From assembly GCF_004116725.1 (NCBI RefSeq), contig NZ_PDKG01000004.1:1-64000 (forward strand): 64,000 bases of DNA. The letters run 5' to 3'. The stretch is from Arcobacter sp. CECT 8986 (GTDB taxonomy: Bacteria > Campylobacterota > Campylobacteria > Campylobacterales > Arcobacteraceae). The translations under genes and the position numbers were made by a program. This document shows positions 51 to 22,204 of the stretch, piece by piece. Every line of letters starts with the position of its first letter. Positions within the stretch are counted from its first letter, which is position 1. The notes beneath the pieces are model-generated. The model made no database searches. It was not told the origin of the DNA and saw only the letters and a program-made list of their open reading frames with translations.

Positions 51-125
51 GGCCCCTTCATCTAGCGGTTAGGATTCATGGTTTTCATCCATGCCACAGG
101 AGTTCGAGTCTCCTAGGGGTCACCA
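51..125 (+). tRNA. tRNA-Glu (TTC)
   Basis: A complete cloverleaf can be drawn. Acceptor GGCCCCT pairs with AGGGGTC, with discriminator A and encoded CCA at 123-125. The anticodon stem CATGG/CCATG (77-81/89-93) encloses a seven-base loop with anticodon TTC at 84-86. The T arm is AGGAG-TTCGAGT-CTCCT. It is 10 nt from the upstream tRNA and probably co-transcribed with it. Confidence 0.95.
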
Positions 126-3082: not shown

Positions 3083-4978
3083 ATGGAATTACAATCATTA
3101 ATTTATCTATTCGTAGGTATTTCATTCGCAATATATATTGGTATTGCACTTTGGGCTAAAGCTGGTTCAACTAAGGACTTTTATGTTGCAGGTGGAGGGG
3201 TTCACCCAGTAGCAAATGGTATGGCTACTGCAGCAGATTGGATGAGTGCTGCATCATTCATCTCTATGGCAGGTATTATTGCTTTTATTGGTAGTGATGC
3301 TAGTGCTTATTTAATGGGATGGACAGGTGGATATGTTCTACTTGCAATGTTATTAGCTCCATATTTAAGAAAGTTTGGTAAATTTACAGTTCCAGATTTT
3401 GTTGGTGATAGATATTATTCAGATGTTGCAAGAACAGTTGCTGTAATTGCTGTAATCTTTGTATCTTTTACATATGTTGCTGGTCAAATGAGAGGTGTTG
3501 GTATAGTATTTTCAAGATTTTTACAAGTTGACGTAAATACTGGTGTAATTATTGGTATGGTTATTGTATTTTTCTACTCTGTATTAGGAGGAATGAAAGG
3601 TATTACTTATACACAAGTTGCACAATATGTAGTAATGATTTTTGCATATACAATTCCTGCAATTTTCTTATCACTACAAGTTACTGATACATTTTTACCA
3701 CAATTAGGTATTTTTGGACAAACAACTTTTGCATTTGATGATGGAGTAAAAGTTATTCCTGAAGGAACATATTTACTACATGCATTAGATTCAGCCATAA
3801 CAGACCTTGGTTTTGGTGCTTATACTGAGCCTGGTAACTTATGGAATATGTTTATGTTAACAACAGCATTAATGTTAGGAACAGCAGGTTTACCTCACGT
3901 TATTGTAAGATTCTTTACAGTACCAACAGTAAAAGATGCTAGAGTTTCTGCTGGTTGGGCATTAGTATTTATTGCAATTATGTATACATCAGCATCAGCT
4001 GTTGCAGCATTTTCAAGAGTTAACTTAATTAAAAATGTTCAAAATGTTGAGTATAAAGCATTTGTAAATGGTGAATTATCACATGCAGATGGAACAAAAA
4101 ATGATGGTAACTGGTTTAGAACTTGGGAACAAGGTGGACTACTTGCTTGGACAGATAGAAATGGTGATGGTAAGATTCAATATGCTAAAGGTGTAGCATT
4201 TGATGGACCAAAAGGAAAACCTGTATTTGATGGTGAAAAAAGAGCTGAAGATGGACATAGAGTTACTTTAAATAGTAAAGGTATGCCAACACAAGAAGAG
4301 TTAGCAAAAAATAATGGTATGCACAATGAATTATATGTTGATAGAGATATTATGGTTCTTGCAAATCCAGAGATTGCAAACTTACCAAATTGGGTAATTG
4401 CATTTATTGCAGCTGGGGGACTTGCAGCAGCATTATCAACAGCAGCAGGTTTATTACTTGTAATTGCATCAGCAATTTCACACGATTTAATGGGTCAAGT
4501 TATCTTTAAAGATAAAGATACTGGGAAATCTAAGTTAACAGAGAAATCTGAATTAACATGGGCTAGAATTTCAGCTGTTGCAGCTATTTGCGTCGCTGGA
4601 TATTTAGGAATCAACCCTCCAGGATTTGTTGCACAAGTTGTTGCATTTGCATTTGGTTTAGCAGCTGCAGCATTCTTCCCAACAATTATACTTGGGGTAT
4701 TTGATAAGAGAATGAATAAAGAAGGTGCGATTGCTGGTATTTTAACTGGTCTAATCTTTACATTCGGATACATTATTTACTTTGTATTCTTAGGTGGAAG
4801 TAAAGAGGATTATTTCTTAGGAATTGCTCCAACTGGTATTGGTACTATTGGTACAATACTTCACTTAATAGTTGCATTTGTGGTATCTAGAATGACTCCA
4901 GAGCCACCAGCACATGTACAAGAAATTGTTGAAAACATCAGAATTCCTTCAGGAGCTGGTGCAGCAGTTGATCACTAA
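3083..4978 (+). CDS. Sodium:solute symporter, VC_2705 subfamily
   Basis: This 631-residue inner-membrane symporter of the SSS family has the signature FYVAGGGVHPVANGMATAAD near residues 33-52 and [20 protein letters not shown] later on. It is longer than ActP because of a hydrophilic insertion of roughly 100 residues (about 315-430) between membrane segments. The insertion contains an EF-hand-like stretch, DRNGDGKIQ. The SD is AAGGAGAGG. Location next to acetate genes and a DUF4212 subunit suggests a monocarboxylate substrate (acetate, or perhaps pyruvate or propionate), but the sequence does not decide this. The C terminus ends AVDH, as does the unrelated-subfamily ActP at 8089. Confidence 0.88.
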   Translation: MELQSLIYLFVGISFAIYIGIALWAKAGSTKDFYVAGGGVHPVANGMATAADWMSAASFISMAGIIAFIGSDASAYLMGWTGGYVLLAMLLAPYLRKFGKFTVPDFVGDRYYSDVARTVAVIAVIFVSFTYVAGQMRGVGIVFSRFLQVDVNTGVIIGMVIVFFYSVLGGMKGITYTQVAQYVVMIFAYTIPAIFLSLQVTDTFLPQLGIFGQTTFAFDDGVKVIPEGTYLLHALDSAITDLGFGAYTEPGNLWNMFMLTTALMLGTAGLPHVIVRFFTVPTVKDARVSAGWALVFIAIMYTSASAVAAFSRVNLIKNVQNVEYKAFVNGELSHADGTKNDGNWFRTWEQGGLLAWTDRNGDGKIQYAKGVAFDGPKGKPVFDGEKRAEDGHRVTLNSKGMPTQEELAKNNGMHNELYVDRDIMVLANPEIANLPNWVIAFIAAGGLAAALSTAAGLLLVIASAISHDLMGQVIFKDKDTGKSKLTEKSELTWARISAVAAICVAGYLGINPPGFVAQVVAFAFGLAAAAFFPTIILGVFDKRMNKEGAIAGILTGLIFTFGYIIYFVFLGGSKEDYFLGIAPTGIGTIGTILHLIVAFVVSRMTPEPPAHVQEIVENIRIPSGAGAAVDH

Positions 4979-5069: not shown

Positions 5070-6884
5070 ATGAGTCTACGTGATCAAGAAGCCTTTTTAT
5101 CTGATATTCATCCATTTGAACTTTTATCTTCTAAACAGATGAACAAATGTATAAATAATATGGATATTGCTTACTATCCAAAAGATACAACACTTATAAG
5201 CCCAGAGAATATTCCAAATTCGTACTTTATTATTATAAAAGGAACTGTTCACCAATATCAAGATGAACAATTAGTTATGGATTACCATCAACAAGACTCT
5301 TTAGATGCAAATTCTTTGATTTATTCAACTACAAAAAGTAGCTTTAAAGTACAAGAAGATTTAATTTGCTATGAACTTAATAAAAAAACTTTTTTAGAGT
5401 TAATAGAAGAAAATATCCAATTTAAAGACTTTTTTTTAAATAACTTAGTAAATAAAATTCAAACATTAAAAACAAAAGAGTACACTTCTCAACTCTCGTC
5501 ATTTATGATATCTAAAGTTGAAGATACATTAATTCATGAACCTTGTATTGTACAAAAAGGTACAACACTTAAAGATGCAATTGCAAAATCAATTGAACAT
5601 AAAACTTCAACAATAATTGTAAAAAAAGATGAAGAGTATGGAATTATTACCGATTCTTTATTGAAAATGGAAGTTCTTTTAACAGAGAAAAATTTAGAAA
5701 ACTTTGTAGAAGATATTGCAATATTTCCATTACTTACAGTTTTTAATGATGATTATTTATTTGAAGCATTAACTCTTTTGATAAAAAAAGGAATAAAAAG
5801 AGTTGGAGTTGTAAATAGTAAAAATGAACTTATTGGAATTTTAGAACAGCTAGATGTTTTATCACATTTTGCAAATCACTCTTTTGTAGTAGATACACAA
5901 ATAAAAAAAGCAAAATCAATTGATGCACTAAAAACAGCAAGTAAAGATTTGATAAATATTATAAGAGCTTTACAAGTAAAAGGTGTAAAAGTAAATCATA
6001 TATCAAATCTAATTGGACAGTTAAATACAAAAGTATATAAAAAACTTTATCAACTAATTGTTCCTGAAGTTTTACAAAAAGATGCTTGTTTTATAGTAAT
6101 GGGAAGTGAAGGAAGAAATGAACAAATAATAAAAACTGACCAAGATAATGCACTTGTAGTAAAAGATGGAATTGATGTTGAACAGTATAAACCTTATATG
6201 AAAAAAATGACTGAAACATTAATTGATTTTGGATACCCACCTTGTGAAGGTAATATTATGGTTTCAAATCCATTTTGGTGCAAAAATGTAAAAGATTATG
6301 AAAAAGAGACTTCAAGATGGATAGAAGCTCCAGATATGCAAAATTATATGGATTTAGCTATATTTTTTGATTCTTTTGCAGTTGCTGGAGATAAAGAGTT
6401 ATTAATAAAATTAAAAGATAATTTATTTGATAAATTGCATGATAAAGATGTTTTTTTAGCTTACTTTGCAAAAGCTACATTAACTTTTGATACACCAAAT
6501 ACAATTGCTAATTTTATGACAAAAACACACTTTATTGATATAAAAAAAGCAGGAGTATTTCCTATTGTTCAAGGTATAAGAAGTTTAGCACTAAGAGAAA
6601 AAATTAGAGAAACTACAACGGTAAAAAGAATAAAAATACTACAAGAGAGAAATGAAATAAATAATGAATTAGCAAATGAACTAATTGAAGCATTTGAAGT
6701 ATTAAGTACACTAAGATTAAAATCACAATTAATTCAAGTTGATAATAAAGAAAAAATAAATAATGAAATAGATACTCATTCATTAAGTAAAATAGAAAGA
6801 GATTTATTAAAAGATAGTTTCAAAATTGTTGTTGCTTTTAAAAAGTTTATTACATACACATTTAAAATAGATAAGATTTCATAA
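5070..6884 (+). CDS. cNMP-binding/CBS/DUF294 putative nucleotidyltransferase
   Basis: This 604-residue soluble protein has a cyclic-nucleotide-binding-like beta barrel (about 15-130), a pair of CBS domains (about 150-275), and a DUF294 nucleotidyltransferase with MGSEGRNEQ at 344-352 and the DxD metal ligands Asp357/Asp359, followed by a helical DUF294_C region. The layout resembles GlnD-like signalling nucleotidyltransferases that modify or sense partners, but the target is unknown. It follows the symporter after a terminator, and its stop codon overlaps the ATG of the exonuclease gene (TAATG). A shorter paralogue without the cNMP domain follows ActP at 9795. Regulation of symport activity is inference from this repeated neighbourhood. 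Confidence 0.85.
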   Translation: MSLRDQEAFLSDIHPFELLSSKQMNKCINNMDIAYYPKDTTLISPENIPNSYFIIIKGTVHQYQDEQLVMDYHQQDSLDANSLIYSTTKSSFKVQEDLICYELNKKTFLELIEENIQFKDFFLNNLVNKIQTLKTKEYTSQLSSFMISKVEDTLIHEPCIVQKGTTLKDAIAKSIEHKTSTIIVKKDEEYGIITDSLLKMEVLLTEKNLENFVEDIAIFPLLTVFNDDYLFEALTLLIKKGIKRVGVVNSKNELIGILEQLDVLSHFANHSFVVDTQIKKAKSIDALKTASKDLINIIRALQVKGVKVNHISNLIGQLNTKVYKKLYQLIVPEVLQKDACFIVMGSEGRNEQIIKTDQDNALVVKDGIDVEQYKPYMKKMTETLIDFGYPPCEGNIMVSNPFWCKNVKDYEKETSRWIEAPDMQNYMDLAIFFDSFAVAGDKELLIKLKDNLFDKLHDKDVFLAYFAKATLTFDTPNTIANFMTKTHFIDIKKAGVFPIVQGIRSLALREKIRETTTVKRIKILQERNEINNELANELIEAFEVLSTLRLKSQLIQVDNKEKINNEIDTHSLSKIERDLLKDSFKIVVAFKKFITYTFKIDKIS

Positions 6885-7516
6885 TGTTTAAAAATTTAAT
6901 AAAAAAATATAGAATAAGTCAACTAAAAAATAAAGAGTTCCTTTATCTTTTTGATGAAGCACCAAAAGGTGAATATATATGTTTAGATTGTGAAACTACT
7001 GGATTAAATCCTAGAAAAGATGAGATAATTTCTATTGGTGCAGTAATGATAAAAAATAATAAAATAATAATAAGAAAAAATTTCAATATTTTTCTAAAAT
7101 CTTCAATTAATACAAATGAAGAATCAATAAAGATTCACCAAATAAGACCAATAGATTTAGAAAATGCCACAGAACCTAGTGATGCCATTTTTAAATTATT
7201 AAAATTTATTGGTTCAAGACCAATTGTAGGTTACTATATAGACTTTGATATTTCGATAATTTCAAAATATACAAAAAAATTGATAGGAATAAAAATTCCA
7301 AATGAAAAAATCGAAGTTTCATCAATGTATTATAAAACAAAAAAACGTTCAAGTGAATATGAATTTGTTGATTTAAAATTTGATACTATTATGAAAGAAC
7401 TAGATATTCCAGAACTTGGAAAACATGATGCGCTAAATGATGCAATAATGACAGCAATGATGTTTTTAAAACTAAAAGATAAAACTCCTGCTAAAACTAC
7501 TTTTTACACAAATTAA
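6884..7516 (+). CDS. DEDDh 3'-5' exonuclease (DnaQ-like)
   Basis: This 210-residue exonuclease of the DnaQ/RNase T fold has Exo I YICLDCETTGL (Asp35, Glu37), Exo II around GYYIDFD (Asp120/Asp122) and Exo III HDALNDA (His181, Asp186), so all catalytic residues are present. It starts inside the stop codon of the DUF294 gene and is surely translationally coupled to it. Symporter, CBS-DUF294 and DnaQ-like genes in a row are a combination I recall from acetate symporter loci of other proteobacteria. The substrate is unknown, and it is not likely to be the replicative epsilon subunit. Confidence 0.85.
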   Translation: MFKNLIKKYRISQLKNKEFLYLFDEAPKGEYICLDCETTGLNPRKDEIISIGAVMIKNNKIIIRKNFNIFLKSSINTNEESIKIHQIRPIDLENATEPSDAIFKLLKFIGSRPIVGYYIDFDISIISKYTKKLIGIKIPNEKIEVSSMYYKTKKRSSEYEFVDLKFDTIMKELDIPELGKHDALNDAIMTAMMFLKLKDKTPAKTTFYTN

Positions 7517-18864: not shown

Positions 18865-18919
18865 ATCTATAATTTTATAAAAGTTGACAATTTTACTTGA
18901 CTTTAAGTTTGGGAGAAAA

Positions 18920-19402
18920 ATGAAAAAAAAATTAAATGATGATTTGACACTGTTTTATACAAATAATTTTCCTTATAAATCTAAATACAAATCAGACAAA
19001 AAATATTTTGTTACCATTGGTATAGGGGGAAATATAGGGAATGTAAAAAAAAGATTTGATAAGTTATTCTTATATTTAAAAGCTGATGCAAGATTTGATA
19101 TACTTATGACTTCTCCCCTACTTCTAAATCCACCATTTGGTTTTTTGCAACAAAATGACTTTTTAAATGGTATAATTGCGATTCAAACTAACCTTGCACC
19201 TAATGAATTTTTAAAAAATACGCAGAGGTTAGAGAATAGATTAGGAAGAAAGCGATCCTTTCAAGATGCGCCTAGAACCTTGGATATTGATATTATATTT
19301 TTTGATAATAAAAAAATCAATACCCCAAAACTTACTATCCCCCACAAAAATTGGGCTAATAGAGAATCAGTGATTATTCCTTTAAAACTTATGAACAAAT
19401 AA
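18920..19402 (+). CDS. folK: HPPK, folate pyrophosphokinase
   Basis: This 160-residue 6-hydroxymethyl-7,8-dihydropterin pyrophosphokinase has the signature GRKRSFQDAPRTLDIDIIFFD and GIGGNIGN near the start. The frame is open from 18884, but ATG 18920 has SD GGGAGAA and is preferred. It has a longer N-terminal lead (about 20 residues) than usual. Two pieces of its 3' half recur as a degraded copy at 20583-20714, downstream of mnmA. Confidence 0.92.
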   Translation: MKKKLNDDLTLFYTNNFPYKSKYKSDKKYFVTIGIGGNIGNVKKRFDKLFLYLKADARFDILMTSPLLLNPPFGFLQQNDFLNGIIAIQTNLAPNEFLKNTQRLENRLGRKRSFQDAPRTLDIDIIFFDNKKINTPKLTIPHKNWANRESVIIPLKLMNK

Positions 19403-19425
19403 TAAAATTAAAGACAAGGCAAATT

Positions 19426-20523
19426 ATGAAGAAAAAAGTAGTTGTAGGAATGTCAGGTGGTGTTGACTCTTCAGTTACAGCACTACTATTAAAAGAACAA
19501 GGTTACGATGTAGTAGGACTATTTATGCGTAACTGGGAATATGGTATCAAAGGTAGCCAATGCCCTAACCGTATAGAGTTTGAAGATGCTAAAAAAGTTG
19601 GTGAACTAATAGGTATTGAAGTAAAAGGTAAAGACTTTGTTGAAGAGTACAGAACAAAAGTATTTGATGTATTTTTAGAAGGTCTAAAAAAAGGTCTTAC
19701 TCCAAATCCTGATATTTTATGTAATCGTGAAATCAAATTTAATGTATTTTTAAATGAAGCAAAAAAAATGGGTGCTGATTTTATTGCTACTGGGCACTAT
19801 GCAAAAATAGCTCAATATAAAGACCATTATGTTTTAGATACACCAAAAGATAGTAGTAAAGACCAAAGCTATTTTCTACATGCATTATCAAGTGAACAAC
19901 TTTCTCAAGCAATGTTTCCACTTGCAGATTTAACAAAAAAAGAAGTTAGACAAATAGCAAAAGAACATAATTTACCAGTTAGTGATAAAAAAGATAGTAC
20001 GGGTATATGTTTCATTGGAAAACAAAAATTTGATGAATTTATTACTCAATATCTAAAAGCAATACCTGGTGATATTATTGATGAAAATGGAAAAGTAATA
20101 GGAAGACACAAAGGTCTTGTTTGTTATACACTTGGTCAAAGAAAAGGTATCGGTCTTGGTGGTATTAAAGATAATGAATTAGAAAATAATATTCACAAGC
20201 CATGGTATGTAGCTAAAAAAGATATGACTAATAATACATTGACAATTGTACAAGATACAAACCATCCTTTATTAATGAGTAAAAATGTTGAAGCAAGTCA
20301 TATGCATTGGGTATTAGAAGAAACACCAGAAGTTGGTGATAAATTAATGGCTCAAGTTCGATATAGACAACAAAAACAAGCTTGTACAGTTGTAGAAGTA
20401 AATGATGATAAAGTTGTAGTTGAATTTGACAATTTACAAAGAGCAGTAACATTAGGACAAAGTCTTGTTTTATATGAAGGTGATTATTGTCTTGGTGGTG
20501 GATTTATTAGTGATTACAATTAA
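19426..20523 (+). CDS. mnmA: tRNA 2-thiouridylase MnmA, proteobacterial (E. coli-like) type
   Basis: This 365-residue PP-loop enzyme makes s2U34 in tRNA. It has the PP-loop GMSGGVDSS at 8-16, catalytic Cys99 (PDILCNREIKF) and Cys195 (DSTGICFIG), FMRNW at 33-37 and a C-terminal beta barrel. FMRNW and STGICFIG resemble gammaproteobacterial MnmA, unlike the second mnmA at 20757. It starts 24 nt after folK. This copy may have been acquired by transfer, because the folK 3' end is repeated behind it. Confidence 0.92.
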   Translation: MKKKVVVGMSGGVDSSVTALLLKEQGYDVVGLFMRNWEYGIKGSQCPNRIEFEDAKKVGELIGIEVKGKDFVEEYRTKVFDVFLEGLKKGLTPNPDILCNREIKFNVFLNEAKKMGADFIATGHYAKIAQYKDHYVLDTPKDSSKDQSYFLHALSSEQLSQAMFPLADLTKKEVRQIAKEHNLPVSDKKDSTGICFIGKQKFDEFITQYLKAIPGDIIDENGKVIGRHKGLVCYTLGQRKGIGLGGIKDNELENNIHKPWYVAKKDMTNNTLTIVQDTNHPLLMSKNVEASHMHWVLEETPEVGDKLMAQVRYRQQKQACTVVEVNDDKVVVEFDNLQRAVTLGQSLVLYEGDYCLGGGFISDYN

Positions 20524-20582
20524 TATGGTATAATTGCCACCTTAATTTTTAAAAAACTATATAAAAATTAGAAATAAAATAC

Positions 20583-20714
20583 GGAAGAAAGCGATCCTTT
20601 CAAGATACGCCTAAACCAAAAATTAAATATCACATTAATTATAAATATGAAAAACTACCTTAATGTAGTTTTTCATAATATTGGGCAAACAGAGAATCTG
20701 TGATTATTCCTTTA
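20583..20714 (+). pseudogene. Remnant of the folK 3' region
   Basis: 20583-20617 matches folk positions 19244-19279 (GRKRSFQDAPRT coding) with one substitution and one single-base deletion. 20680-20714 matches folK 19350-19384 with three mismatches in 35. The 70 nt between these blocks in folK are replaced here by 62 unrelated nt that include a terminator hairpin. No frame is open across it. It looks like the scar of a duplication or recombination that placed a second mnmA between folK and the resident mnmA. Confidence 0.85.
20647..20676. terminator. Perfect hairpin inside the folK remnant
   Basis: ATGAAAAACTAC (20647-20658) pairs perfectly with GTAGTTTTTCAT (20665-20676) around CTTAAT. The T run is inside the 3' arm. 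It probably terminates the upstream mnmA transcript and may have come with the inserted fragment. Confidence 0.7.
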
Positions 20715-20756
20715 TTAAAATACAGTTTTAAAATAGAGACTTTTTAAAGGTAAAAT

Positions 20757-21791
20757 ATGAAAAAAGTAATGGTTGGGATGAGTGGTGGAATTGATTCATC
20801 AGTAACAGCCTATATGCTACAAAAAGATGGTTATGAAGTTGAAGGTGTTTATTTAAAACTTCATAATAGAACTGACGGTTATCATGAAAAAAATCTTGGA
20901 TACATTGAAGATGTTGCAAAATATTTAGGTATCAAATACCATATATTAGATTTAGCTGATAAATTTACACAAGAGGTTTATGATTATTTTGTTGATTCTT
21001 ATTTAGAAGGGACAACTCCAAACCCATGTGTTAAATGTAATAGACAAATAAAATTTGGTGCAATGCTAAAATTTGCAAAAGAGCATGGTGCTTCATACTT
21101 AGCAACAGGTCATTATGCAAAAACTGATGGAAACTTTTTCTATGAAGCAGATGATAAAACTAAAGACCAAAGTTATTTTTTATCTCAAGTTGAAAAAGAT
21201 GCACTACCTTATATGATGTTTCCATTAAGTACACATAAAAAAGAAGATATTATAAAATTTGGAGCAGAACTTGATGTTGCTTACAAAAGAATAACAGAAA
21301 AAAGTGAATCTCAAGAAATCTGTTTTGTTGAAACAGTATATACAGATGTTGTTAAAAGACATGCAAATATTGATATACCTGGTAATGTATTAGATGAAGA
21401 AGGTAATGTTGTAGGAAAACATAAAGGTTATATGCATTATACAATTGGTAAAAGAAGAGGATTTACAGTAGATGGTGCACATGAACCACACTTTGTAACA
21501 AAATTAAATCCAAAAGACAATACAATTGTAGTTGGTAAAAAAAATGCACTTGAAGTAAATTATGTTACAGCAAATAATTTAAATATGTATATTGATGATA
21601 CTAATTTTAAATGTGGTGTAAAACTAAGATACCGAAGTGTAACAACTCCTTGTGAAGTTACAATCAAAGATAATAAAGCAACAATAAAATTAGAAGAACC
21701 AGCATTTGGAGTTGCAGCAGGTCAACTTGCTGTTTTTTATGATGGACAAAAAGTTATTGGAAGTGGTTGGATAGAAAACACATCAAGATAG
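20757..21791 (+). CDS. mnmA: tRNA 2-thiouridylase MnmA, second (campylobacterial-type) copy
   Basis: This 344-residue MnmA has PP-loop GMSGGIDSS (7-15), Cys94 in PNPCVKCNRQIKF, Cys189 in SESQEICFVE, ATGHYAK and a C-terminal barrel ending GSGWIE. It has VYLKLHNRTDGYHEKN where the first copy has LFMRNWEYG, so the two belong to different branches of the family. This one resembles the usual Campylobacterota enzyme. Both copies keep the catalytic cysteines, so both may be active. A weak SD (AAAGG) precedes the ATG. Confidence 0.92.
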   Translation: MKKVMVGMSGGIDSSVTAYMLQKDGYEVEGVYLKLHNRTDGYHEKNLGYIEDVAKYLGIKYHILDLADKFTQEVYDYFVDSYLEGTTPNPCVKCNRQIKFGAMLKFAKEHGASYLATGHYAKTDGNFFYEADDKTKDQSYFLSQVEKDALPYMMFPLSTHKKEDIIKFGAELDVAYKRITEKSESQEICFVETVYTDVVKRHANIDIPGNVLDEEGNVVGKHKGYMHYTIGKRRGFTVDGAHEPHFVTKLNPKDNTIVVGKKNALEVNYVTANNLNMYIDDTNFKCGVKLRYRSVTTPCEVTIKDNKATIKLEEPAFGVAAGQLAVFYDGQKVIGSGWIENTSR

Positions 21792-21801
21792 TATCAAAAT
21801 G

Positions 21802-21830
21802 CTAAGAGAGGAGGAGGGATTCTCTCTTAG
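21802..21830 (+). terminator. Terminator hairpin after second mnmA
   Basis: CTAAGAGAG (21802-21810) pairs with CTCTCTTAG (21822-21830) around a purine-rich loop, 10 nt after the stop codon. A weak T run follows. Confidence 0.65.
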
Positions 21831-22204
21831 ATTTCTACACTAGAAAGTATATATGAAGTCAAACCTGACAATCATCACAAAAAAGTTACTAAAACTACTT
21901 TAGTTTCAAAGTAAATGAGCGGGTACTTTAAAATCCTAAAATATTTTGTAACTACAAAATTACAAGGTGTGTGTAATCAAAATAACGGACTCGCGCTTAA
22001 AAAATTTCCTTTTAGTCTTCTTTGCTTTAGAAGAACAATCAAAGTATAACACGAAAAAATCTAAAATAAATATTTGCCCTGTATATTTTATATACTTTTA
22101 GCCTATATATTTTTTATAAAATACATATAAATTCAATATAAGTAGTATTTAGATAGAATCGCATTATAAAAATACTAATAAAAAAATTACAAGGAAAAAA
22201 TATA
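21831..22204. other. Intergenic region upstream of prs, no gene assigned
   Basis: This is the longest gene-free stretch of the window (with the hairpin, about 410 nt). It has local GC-richer patches (around 21918-21926 and 21984-21998) and small stems such as TTGTAA/TTACAA near 21954. I could not fit it to tRNA, tmRNA, SRP or 6S RNA. A possible -10-like box (TAGAAT) lies near 22153 for prs. It may hold an uncharacterised small RNA or a long 5' leader. Confidence 0.3.

Follow-up and report, generated by a model that had tools for sequence, protein, structure and literature searches.

The leader of the E. coli thrS mRNA is protein-responsive and mimics tRNA, and homology-assisted insertion is a general mechanism that can leave a duplicated gene end behind. 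The -10 box of C. jejuni and H. pylori has been described as gnTAnaAT, internal promoters tend to stay with the downstream gene, and a single riboswitch (TPP) has been reported among the leaders of C. jejuni, all according to the part of the study PMC3847290 on which we draw here. Within the portions of text that our literature search returned, no publication was found on a leader of mnmA2 located in folK or on the control of MnmA.

The window analyzed here is a stretch of 64,000 nucleotides from Arcobacter sp. CECT 8986 (contig NZ_PDKG01000004.1, positions 1 to 64,000), in which folK is followed by mnmA1, a repeat of the folK end (termed the scar in the following text) and mnmA2 (Table 1). 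The listed folK reading frame has a TTG start, with an in-frame ATG at 18920, and both MnmA1 and MnmA2 exceed the curated MnmA cut-offs. A long spacer (21792-22204) separates mnmA2 from prs. The preliminary description of this DNA had pointed to two blocks of the folK end that are repeated between the two mnmA genes, and these were confirmed, at the positions given there, by a repeat search and by direct reading. In the repeat search, 19208-19274 matched 20547-20613 (78% over 67 nt, with a near-identical core) and 19347-19384 matched 20677-20714 (89% over 38 nt). The copies of block 1, which begin at 19244 and 20583, show one difference within their first 31 bases, and those of block 2 (19350-19384 and 20680-20714) differ at 3 of 35 bases. 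The repeat is not due to chance, since a protein search recognizes the downstream copy as folK (E 2.7e-6) and a further 18 genomes of the family show the same arrangement.

Table 1. Genes and predicted elements of the folK-mnmA locus, with their positions in the window.
Feature	Position	Strand	Basis
folK (HPPK)	18884-19402	+	TIGR01498, 121.9 bits (cut-off 54.1)
Promoter-like site inside folK, TTTTTAAATGGTATAAT	19160-19176	+	Conserved silent sites, fit to -10 box
P0 hairpin in folK, arms 19188-19197 / 19223-19232	19188-19232	+	Covariation, 66 distinct folKs
Block 1 in folK	19244-19279	+	Near-invariant silent sites
P1 5' strand within folK block 1	19244-19247	+	Predicted
P2 hairpin in folK block 1, loop CTTTCAA	19252-19257 / 19265-19271	+	Predicted
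Block 2 in folK, with TTCC (P1 3' strand) and CCTTTA at its end	19350/19351-19384	+	Silent-site conservation
mnmA1, inserted MnmA of E. coli-like branch	19426-20523	+	Curated MnmA cut-off, structure/tree comparison
Promoter-like site kept in scar, TGGTATAAT	20526-20534	+	TGnTATAAT in 17 of 19 scars
P0-like hairpin of scar, arms 20542-20551 / 20562-20571	20542-20571	+	Fold, z -2.8
Block 1 of scar	20583-20617	+	Repeat search, scar alignments
Block 2 of scar	20680/20681-20714	+	Scar alignments
Likely ribosome-binding site of mnmA2, TAAAGG	20745-20750	+	Sequence
mnmA2, resident MnmA	20757-21791	+	Curated MnmA cut-off, structure/tree comparison

From sequence comparison, the explanation that we favor, with a probability of roughly 0.7, is that the 3' third of folK serves at once as protein code and as promoter and structured leader RNA of mnmA2, and that the repeat is this leader, kept after mnmA1 had been inserted. 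The observations behind it are the freeze of silent sites in folK, the retention of the element in 19 scars, the covariation of the hairpin P0, the tie to the presence of mnmA2 and the chimeric folK of the genome G120; the mechanism of a switch and its signal, proposed further below, are what we infer or guess from them. In the proposed course of events, folK codons would overlap the putative promoter and leader of mnmA2, the gene downstream. Recombination at this position would have brought in a fragment that carried a foreign mnmA1 together with a folK end from the donor, and the resident promoter and leader would remain before mnmA2 as a non-coding copy kept by selection. Freed from coding, this copy would retain what the RNA needs, namely the promoter, P0, block 1, block 2 and the ribosome-binding site.

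In a comparison with 2der, which we take to be E. coli MnmA, MnmA1 matched with 365 bits and MnmA2 with 206 bits, so that MnmA1 is the nearer of the two. In a tree calculated by a quick method, whose outgroup rows include long branches, all 58 MnmA1 rows lay on one side of a branch, apart from MnmA2. In this tree, MnmA1 and MnmA2 represent separate deep branches, and the family's MnmA1 sequences form shallow branches that cut across genera. MnmA1 of G002 groups with those of G066 and G058 of genus g19 (support 95), its MnmA2 falls within its own genus (96), and MnmA1 of G014 groups with those of G000 and G005 (support 95), the MnmA2 sequences grouping otherwise. A simple tandem duplication was rejected, as the copies are not sisters in the tree, which agrees with the earlier assignment of the two genes to different branches. 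MnmA1-like genes were also observed away from folK in G028 (locus L151, 48% identical to MnmA1 of the window) and G079 (L150, 63%); they are possibly kin of the donor.

The preliminary description had further proposed that a mnmA-bearing fragment entered beside folK. In G120, the 5' part of folK is nearest to its own genus (0.915), the 3' end is nearest to G149 of another genus (0.957; g19/g3 genomes carrying mnmA1), and the scar is nearest to four folKs of its own genus that lack mnmA1 (0.95). A sliding comparison located the change-over between donor and resident sequence at the conserved internal promoter, 20 nt upstream of which the scar starts. Judged by these affinities, the G120 folK is chimeric, with a resident 5' half and a donor-like 3' end, and the repeat that follows mnmA1 is the end of the resident folK; a fragment with mnmA1 and a folK end did therefore enter beside folK in this genome. 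For G140, G035 and G045, the scar resembles the genome's own folK about as much as it does any other sequence, and either a local duplication or a closely related donor is possible. The proposal does not extend with the same firmness to the window itself, where the scar is 71% identical to the genome's own folK end and the event, on this similarity, is too old to place which copy was resident.

In several genera, a folK search in 120 relatives revealed a second, partial folK downstream of mnmA1. A 25-mer from block 1 was found, at up to three mismatches, in the folKs of 72 of the 104 family genomes, where it was confined to folK and the scar; G032 and G068, with 4-5 mismatches, were not counted as elements. 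The context of the 72 folKs was mnmA1, scar and mnmA2 in 19 genomes, tandem mnmA1 and mnmA2 with no scar in 33, mnmA2 only in 14 and mnmA1 only in 6. The element is absent from relatives such as G001, G008, G013 and G026, and no mnmA1 was found in these four or in G142, all of them family members with mnmA2 and without the element; G130, G142 and G150, which gave no pattern match, were searched for MnmA2 alone. In a class-wide model search, 26 of 347 genomes, all of them family members, matched with at least 100 bits. The 14 further genomes that matched with 38-50 bits, several of them inside folK by coordinates, were taken as cases of folK likeness, not each one having been checked. A degenerate 24-mer detected 30 stretches in GTDB contigs, of which 28 are labelled as Arcobacter relatives or Campylobacterales/Campylobacteraceae and one as "bacterium" without a lineage label; the remaining one (L114), labelled Spirochaetia, had no folK or mnmA match and was taken as chance. 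A pattern scan of viral contigs gave no matches, and the Rfam covariance models contained no family for the element, the sole match being of the snRNA type with 15.5 bits against a cut-off of 65. On the basis of these searches, the element is confined to the family Arcobacteraceae.

Two further observations concern the same loci. In genus g2, folK apparently continues in frame into mnmA2, with an open frame of approximately 530-550 aa (L089 in G025, L083 in G006, L082 in G037 and L086 in G047; the read-through codons were checked in L089), and such a FolK-MnmA fusion would imply an old link between folK and mnmA in the family. A stretch like AGAACAACTCGTTGTTCTCTTTAGAGTTTTGCTACTTTTA recurs between folK or the scar and mnmA, in the spacers of L036, L042 and L063 and at several folK ends, and these stretches are perhaps a small repeat family.

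All 19 scars keep the core UCCUUUCAA unchanged, and 17 of them keep the promoter pattern TGnTATAAT, the two others (G027 and G140) retaining the element. In many scars the folK-like middle has been lost, and the parts that are kept are the promoter pattern, in most cases the 5' hairpin, block 1, in which CUUUCAA is invariant, block 2 and the ribosome-binding site of mnmA2. The alignment of 18 scars (the nineteenth, G045, was left out as a near-copy of G035) is conserved at both ends and gapped in the middle, and the distance between the blocks varies widely. In the genus of the window, the middle of the repeat is no longer folK-like and the blocks are still near-identical.

The preliminary description had taken the high identity of the blocks as a sign of a recent event or of gene conversion. 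In its full form, this explanation regards the repeat as a plain scar, left by a recent insertion of mnmA1 or rewritten from folK, in which nothing is selected. The young, nearly full scars of G120, G131 and G140 and the movement of mnmA1 between genera fit such an origin, but the scars of G066, G058, G054 and G002 have lost nearly the whole middle and keep the blocks. Moreover, the scars of several genera have differences from folK in common: six of them, across genera, carry GCT for GCG, a base found in no aligned folK, which indicates that they were not simply rewritten from folK. In addition, block 1 is equally frozen in all 14 genomes without mnmA1. A plain scar is thus disfavored and has, in our estimation, a low probability; the best reading of these sequences is that the high identity reflects constraint and not recency.

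The constraint is also visible inside folK, whose 3' region is conserved beyond protein coding, as judged from both its silent sites and the non-coding scars. Codons were counted in 67 folKs chosen for at most one mismatch in block 1, a choice that biases the block-1 values toward high conservation (without selection, the count is the 72 of 104 genomes mentioned above). The codons of block 1 were GGA (67), AGA (67), AAG (66), CGA (55) or CGG (12), TCC (67), TTT (67), CAA (67), GAT (67), GCG (67), CCT (65), AGA (65) and ACC (58). In the mnmA genes of the same loci, which served as background, TCC accounts for 1.5% of Ser codons, GCG for 2.4% of Ala, ACC for 3.1% of Thr, AAG for 5.9% of Lys, and CGA and CGG for 5.4% and 0.3% of Arg. 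The promoter-like site inside folK, which corresponds to the codons F L N G I and the first two bases of the next codon, fits the -10 box gnTAnaAT as given in the part of PMC3847290 used here, and its codons are similarly fixed (AAT in 66/67, GGT in 67/67 and ATA in 67/67). Of 74 folKs, the 4 that had no match to the promoter pattern (G020, G021, G032 and G068) were set aside, and a stretch of 198 nt is gapless across 70 folKs. Mean silent identity was 0.75 in folK, 0.70 in mnmA1 and 0.67 in mnmA2, and the best windows reached 0.96 (block 1), 0.92 (mnmA1) and 0.83 (mnmA2); one N-terminal window of folK showed 0.99, a figure with few sequences behind it. The codons just past block 1 vary (0.38-0.56 at leucine and isoleucines), and the freeze is therefore not explained by hitch-hiking with a recent transfer.

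All 19 scars directly precede mnmA2. Departures from block 1 in folK, beyond the exchange of CGA and CGG, were found in 5 of the 6 mnmA1-only genomes, in 1 of 19 with a scar, and in none of the 14 mnmA2-only or the 33 tandem genomes. The six mnmA1-only genomes have no whole mnmA2 anywhere, two of them keeping decayed pieces, and the one scar genome with a relaxed folK block 1 (G027) has an intact element in its scar. As G019 is related to G053, and G055, G067 and G027 share a genus, the genomes lacking mnmA2 represent fewer independent events, perhaps three or four lineages. This pattern links the element more closely to mnmA2 than to mnmA1; it may act for mnmA1 as well, since in 18 of the 19 scar genomes block 1 is also retained in folK. 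In G015 (L070), mnmA2 is split (3397-4053 and 6642-7013) by an insert of approximately 2.6 kb and mnmA1 is intact, which, together with the decayed mnmA2 of G019 and G021, suggests that mnmA1 can take over. The sequence AAAGG, complementary to CCUUU, is present before mnmA2 in all 33 leaders located directly behind the element. It also precedes 43 of 57 mnmA1 genes, 15 of 33 tandem mnmA2 genes and 5 of 9 mnmA2 genes behind an element-less folK, and is therefore partly just a good ribosome-binding site.

A different role, that of a DNA site for recombination or integration at which mnmA1 enters and whose copies resemble attL and attR, would account for the finding that mnmA1 beside folK is seen only where folK carries the element, and for the change-over in G120 at the adjacent conserved promoter; a frozen patch would also aid ordinary homologous recombination. 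However, inspection of the ORF list around the locus showed no integrase gene, mnmA1 occurs without a second copy in 33 genomes, and P0 covaries. Moreover, once such a site has been used, there is no need for it to retain a promoter, a hairpin and a ribosome-binding site, or to decay upon loss of mnmA2. We consider this role improbable.

The proposed leader RNA is supported, for its 5' hairpin P0, by covariation in the alignment. For the hairpin pairs, 66 distinct folKs gave 35 both-sided cells, mostly in P0, compared to 18.2 ± 2.5 in shuffles, none of 500 of which reached this value, and to at most 6 in slid controls; pairs in which both sides have changed were no more numerous than in shuffles (4 vs 3.6). 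Third codon positions of P0 covary (AAC/AGG vs AAT/AGA; Fisher p 0.002, not a clean probability as the rows are related). The P0 segment of the scar folds with z ≤ -2.5 in 12 of the 17 promoter-bearing scars (single-base shuffles); in the window, the P0-like hairpin of the scar is unlike the P0 of folK in sequence. P1 and P2 fit nearly all scars yet scarcely vary, and P1, P2 and P3 are too invariant for covariation; the RNAalifold consensus of 11 scars contained no both-sided changes, the core being too conserved. P2 overlaps with P3 in some of its bases, and the fit of an alternative hairpin, GAAAG/CUUUC, is about equally good. In four scars, P1 has gained an A-U pair through a base change that, in the coding copy, would modify the FolK protein.

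The inverted repeat GAAAG-n5-CTTTC within block 1 could also belong to a DNA operator for a protein at the internal promoter. This possibility has little probability in our view, given that P0 covaries as RNA, that the scars of G027 and G140 keep the element without the promoter pattern, and that the spacing of the blocks is so variable. A leader peptide encoded by the scar (EESDPFK..., with block 1 read in the +1 frame) was considered because an ATG lies directly before GAAGAA or GAATAA in 10 of 19 scars; as nine scars have no such ATG, four contain a stop codon within the block (GAA TAA) and the reading frame changes from genus to genus, it was rejected as very improbable. CsrA, which binds GGA motifs in C. 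jejuni mRNAs according to the part of PMC4894983 used here, was rejected as the ligand of the leader even more firmly: no csrA match was found in any of the six genomes searched, three of them element-bearing, and GGA motifs fail to explain a frozen block of 36 bases.

As a leader RNA, the element could control the translation of mnmA2 by an either/or choice. In the on state, GGAA of block 1 would pair with UUCC of block 2 (P1) and the Shine-Dalgarno sequence would be free; in the off state, UCCUUUA would pair with the Shine-Dalgarno sequence. In the window, CCTTTA of the scar (20709-20714) can pair with TAAAGG (20745-20750). The two states lie within 1.5 kcal/mol of each other in 26 of 29 leaders, a figure that has no shuffled control and comes from a set leaving out 4 of 33 leaders with more than 70 nt before the start. 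One guess for the signal is MnmA itself, which might bind the CUUUCAA loop through its resemblance to the anticodon loop of tRNA-Glu. The tRNA-Glu of the window (51-125) has the loop UUUUCAU, so that the supposed mimic shares only five consecutive loop bases, and the idea is kept as a guess. It is also conceivable, but in our opinion doubtful, that the element represents a new class of RNA switch of about 200 nt within the folK coding sequence, sensing MnmA, thiolation or a folate signal via the CUUUCAA hairpin, toggling the ribosome-binding site of mnmA2 and setting tRNA 2-thiolation, its frozen sequence being also a recombination doorway for foreign mnmA.

The locus would illustrate the way in which the duplication of a gene end uncovers a regulatory RNA otherwise masked by coding constraint, the scar being a natural non-coding copy stripped of what the RNA can do without. 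The element is a testable candidate for the control of MnmA, and elements of this kind, lying within the upstream gene, are easily missed by searches restricted to intergenic regions. As in homology-assisted insertion, the G120 locus has a chimeric folK and a left-over resident 3' end, but here the left-over appears to be kept as a putative regulatory element instead of decaying. With translational riboswitches and protein-responsive leaders such as thrS, the element shares the position of a structured leader before one gene, a frozen core, possible blocking of the Shine-Dalgarno sequence and a possible tRNA-like hairpin; it differs from them in lying inside the coding sequence of the upstream enzyme and in having no Rfam match. 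The conserved internal promoters of Epsilonproteobacteria, as described in the part of PMC3847290 used here, are alike in having a sigma-70 -10 box inside a gene that is kept with the downstream gene, whereas the folK element would additionally comprise a long structured leader that survives as a non-coding copy.
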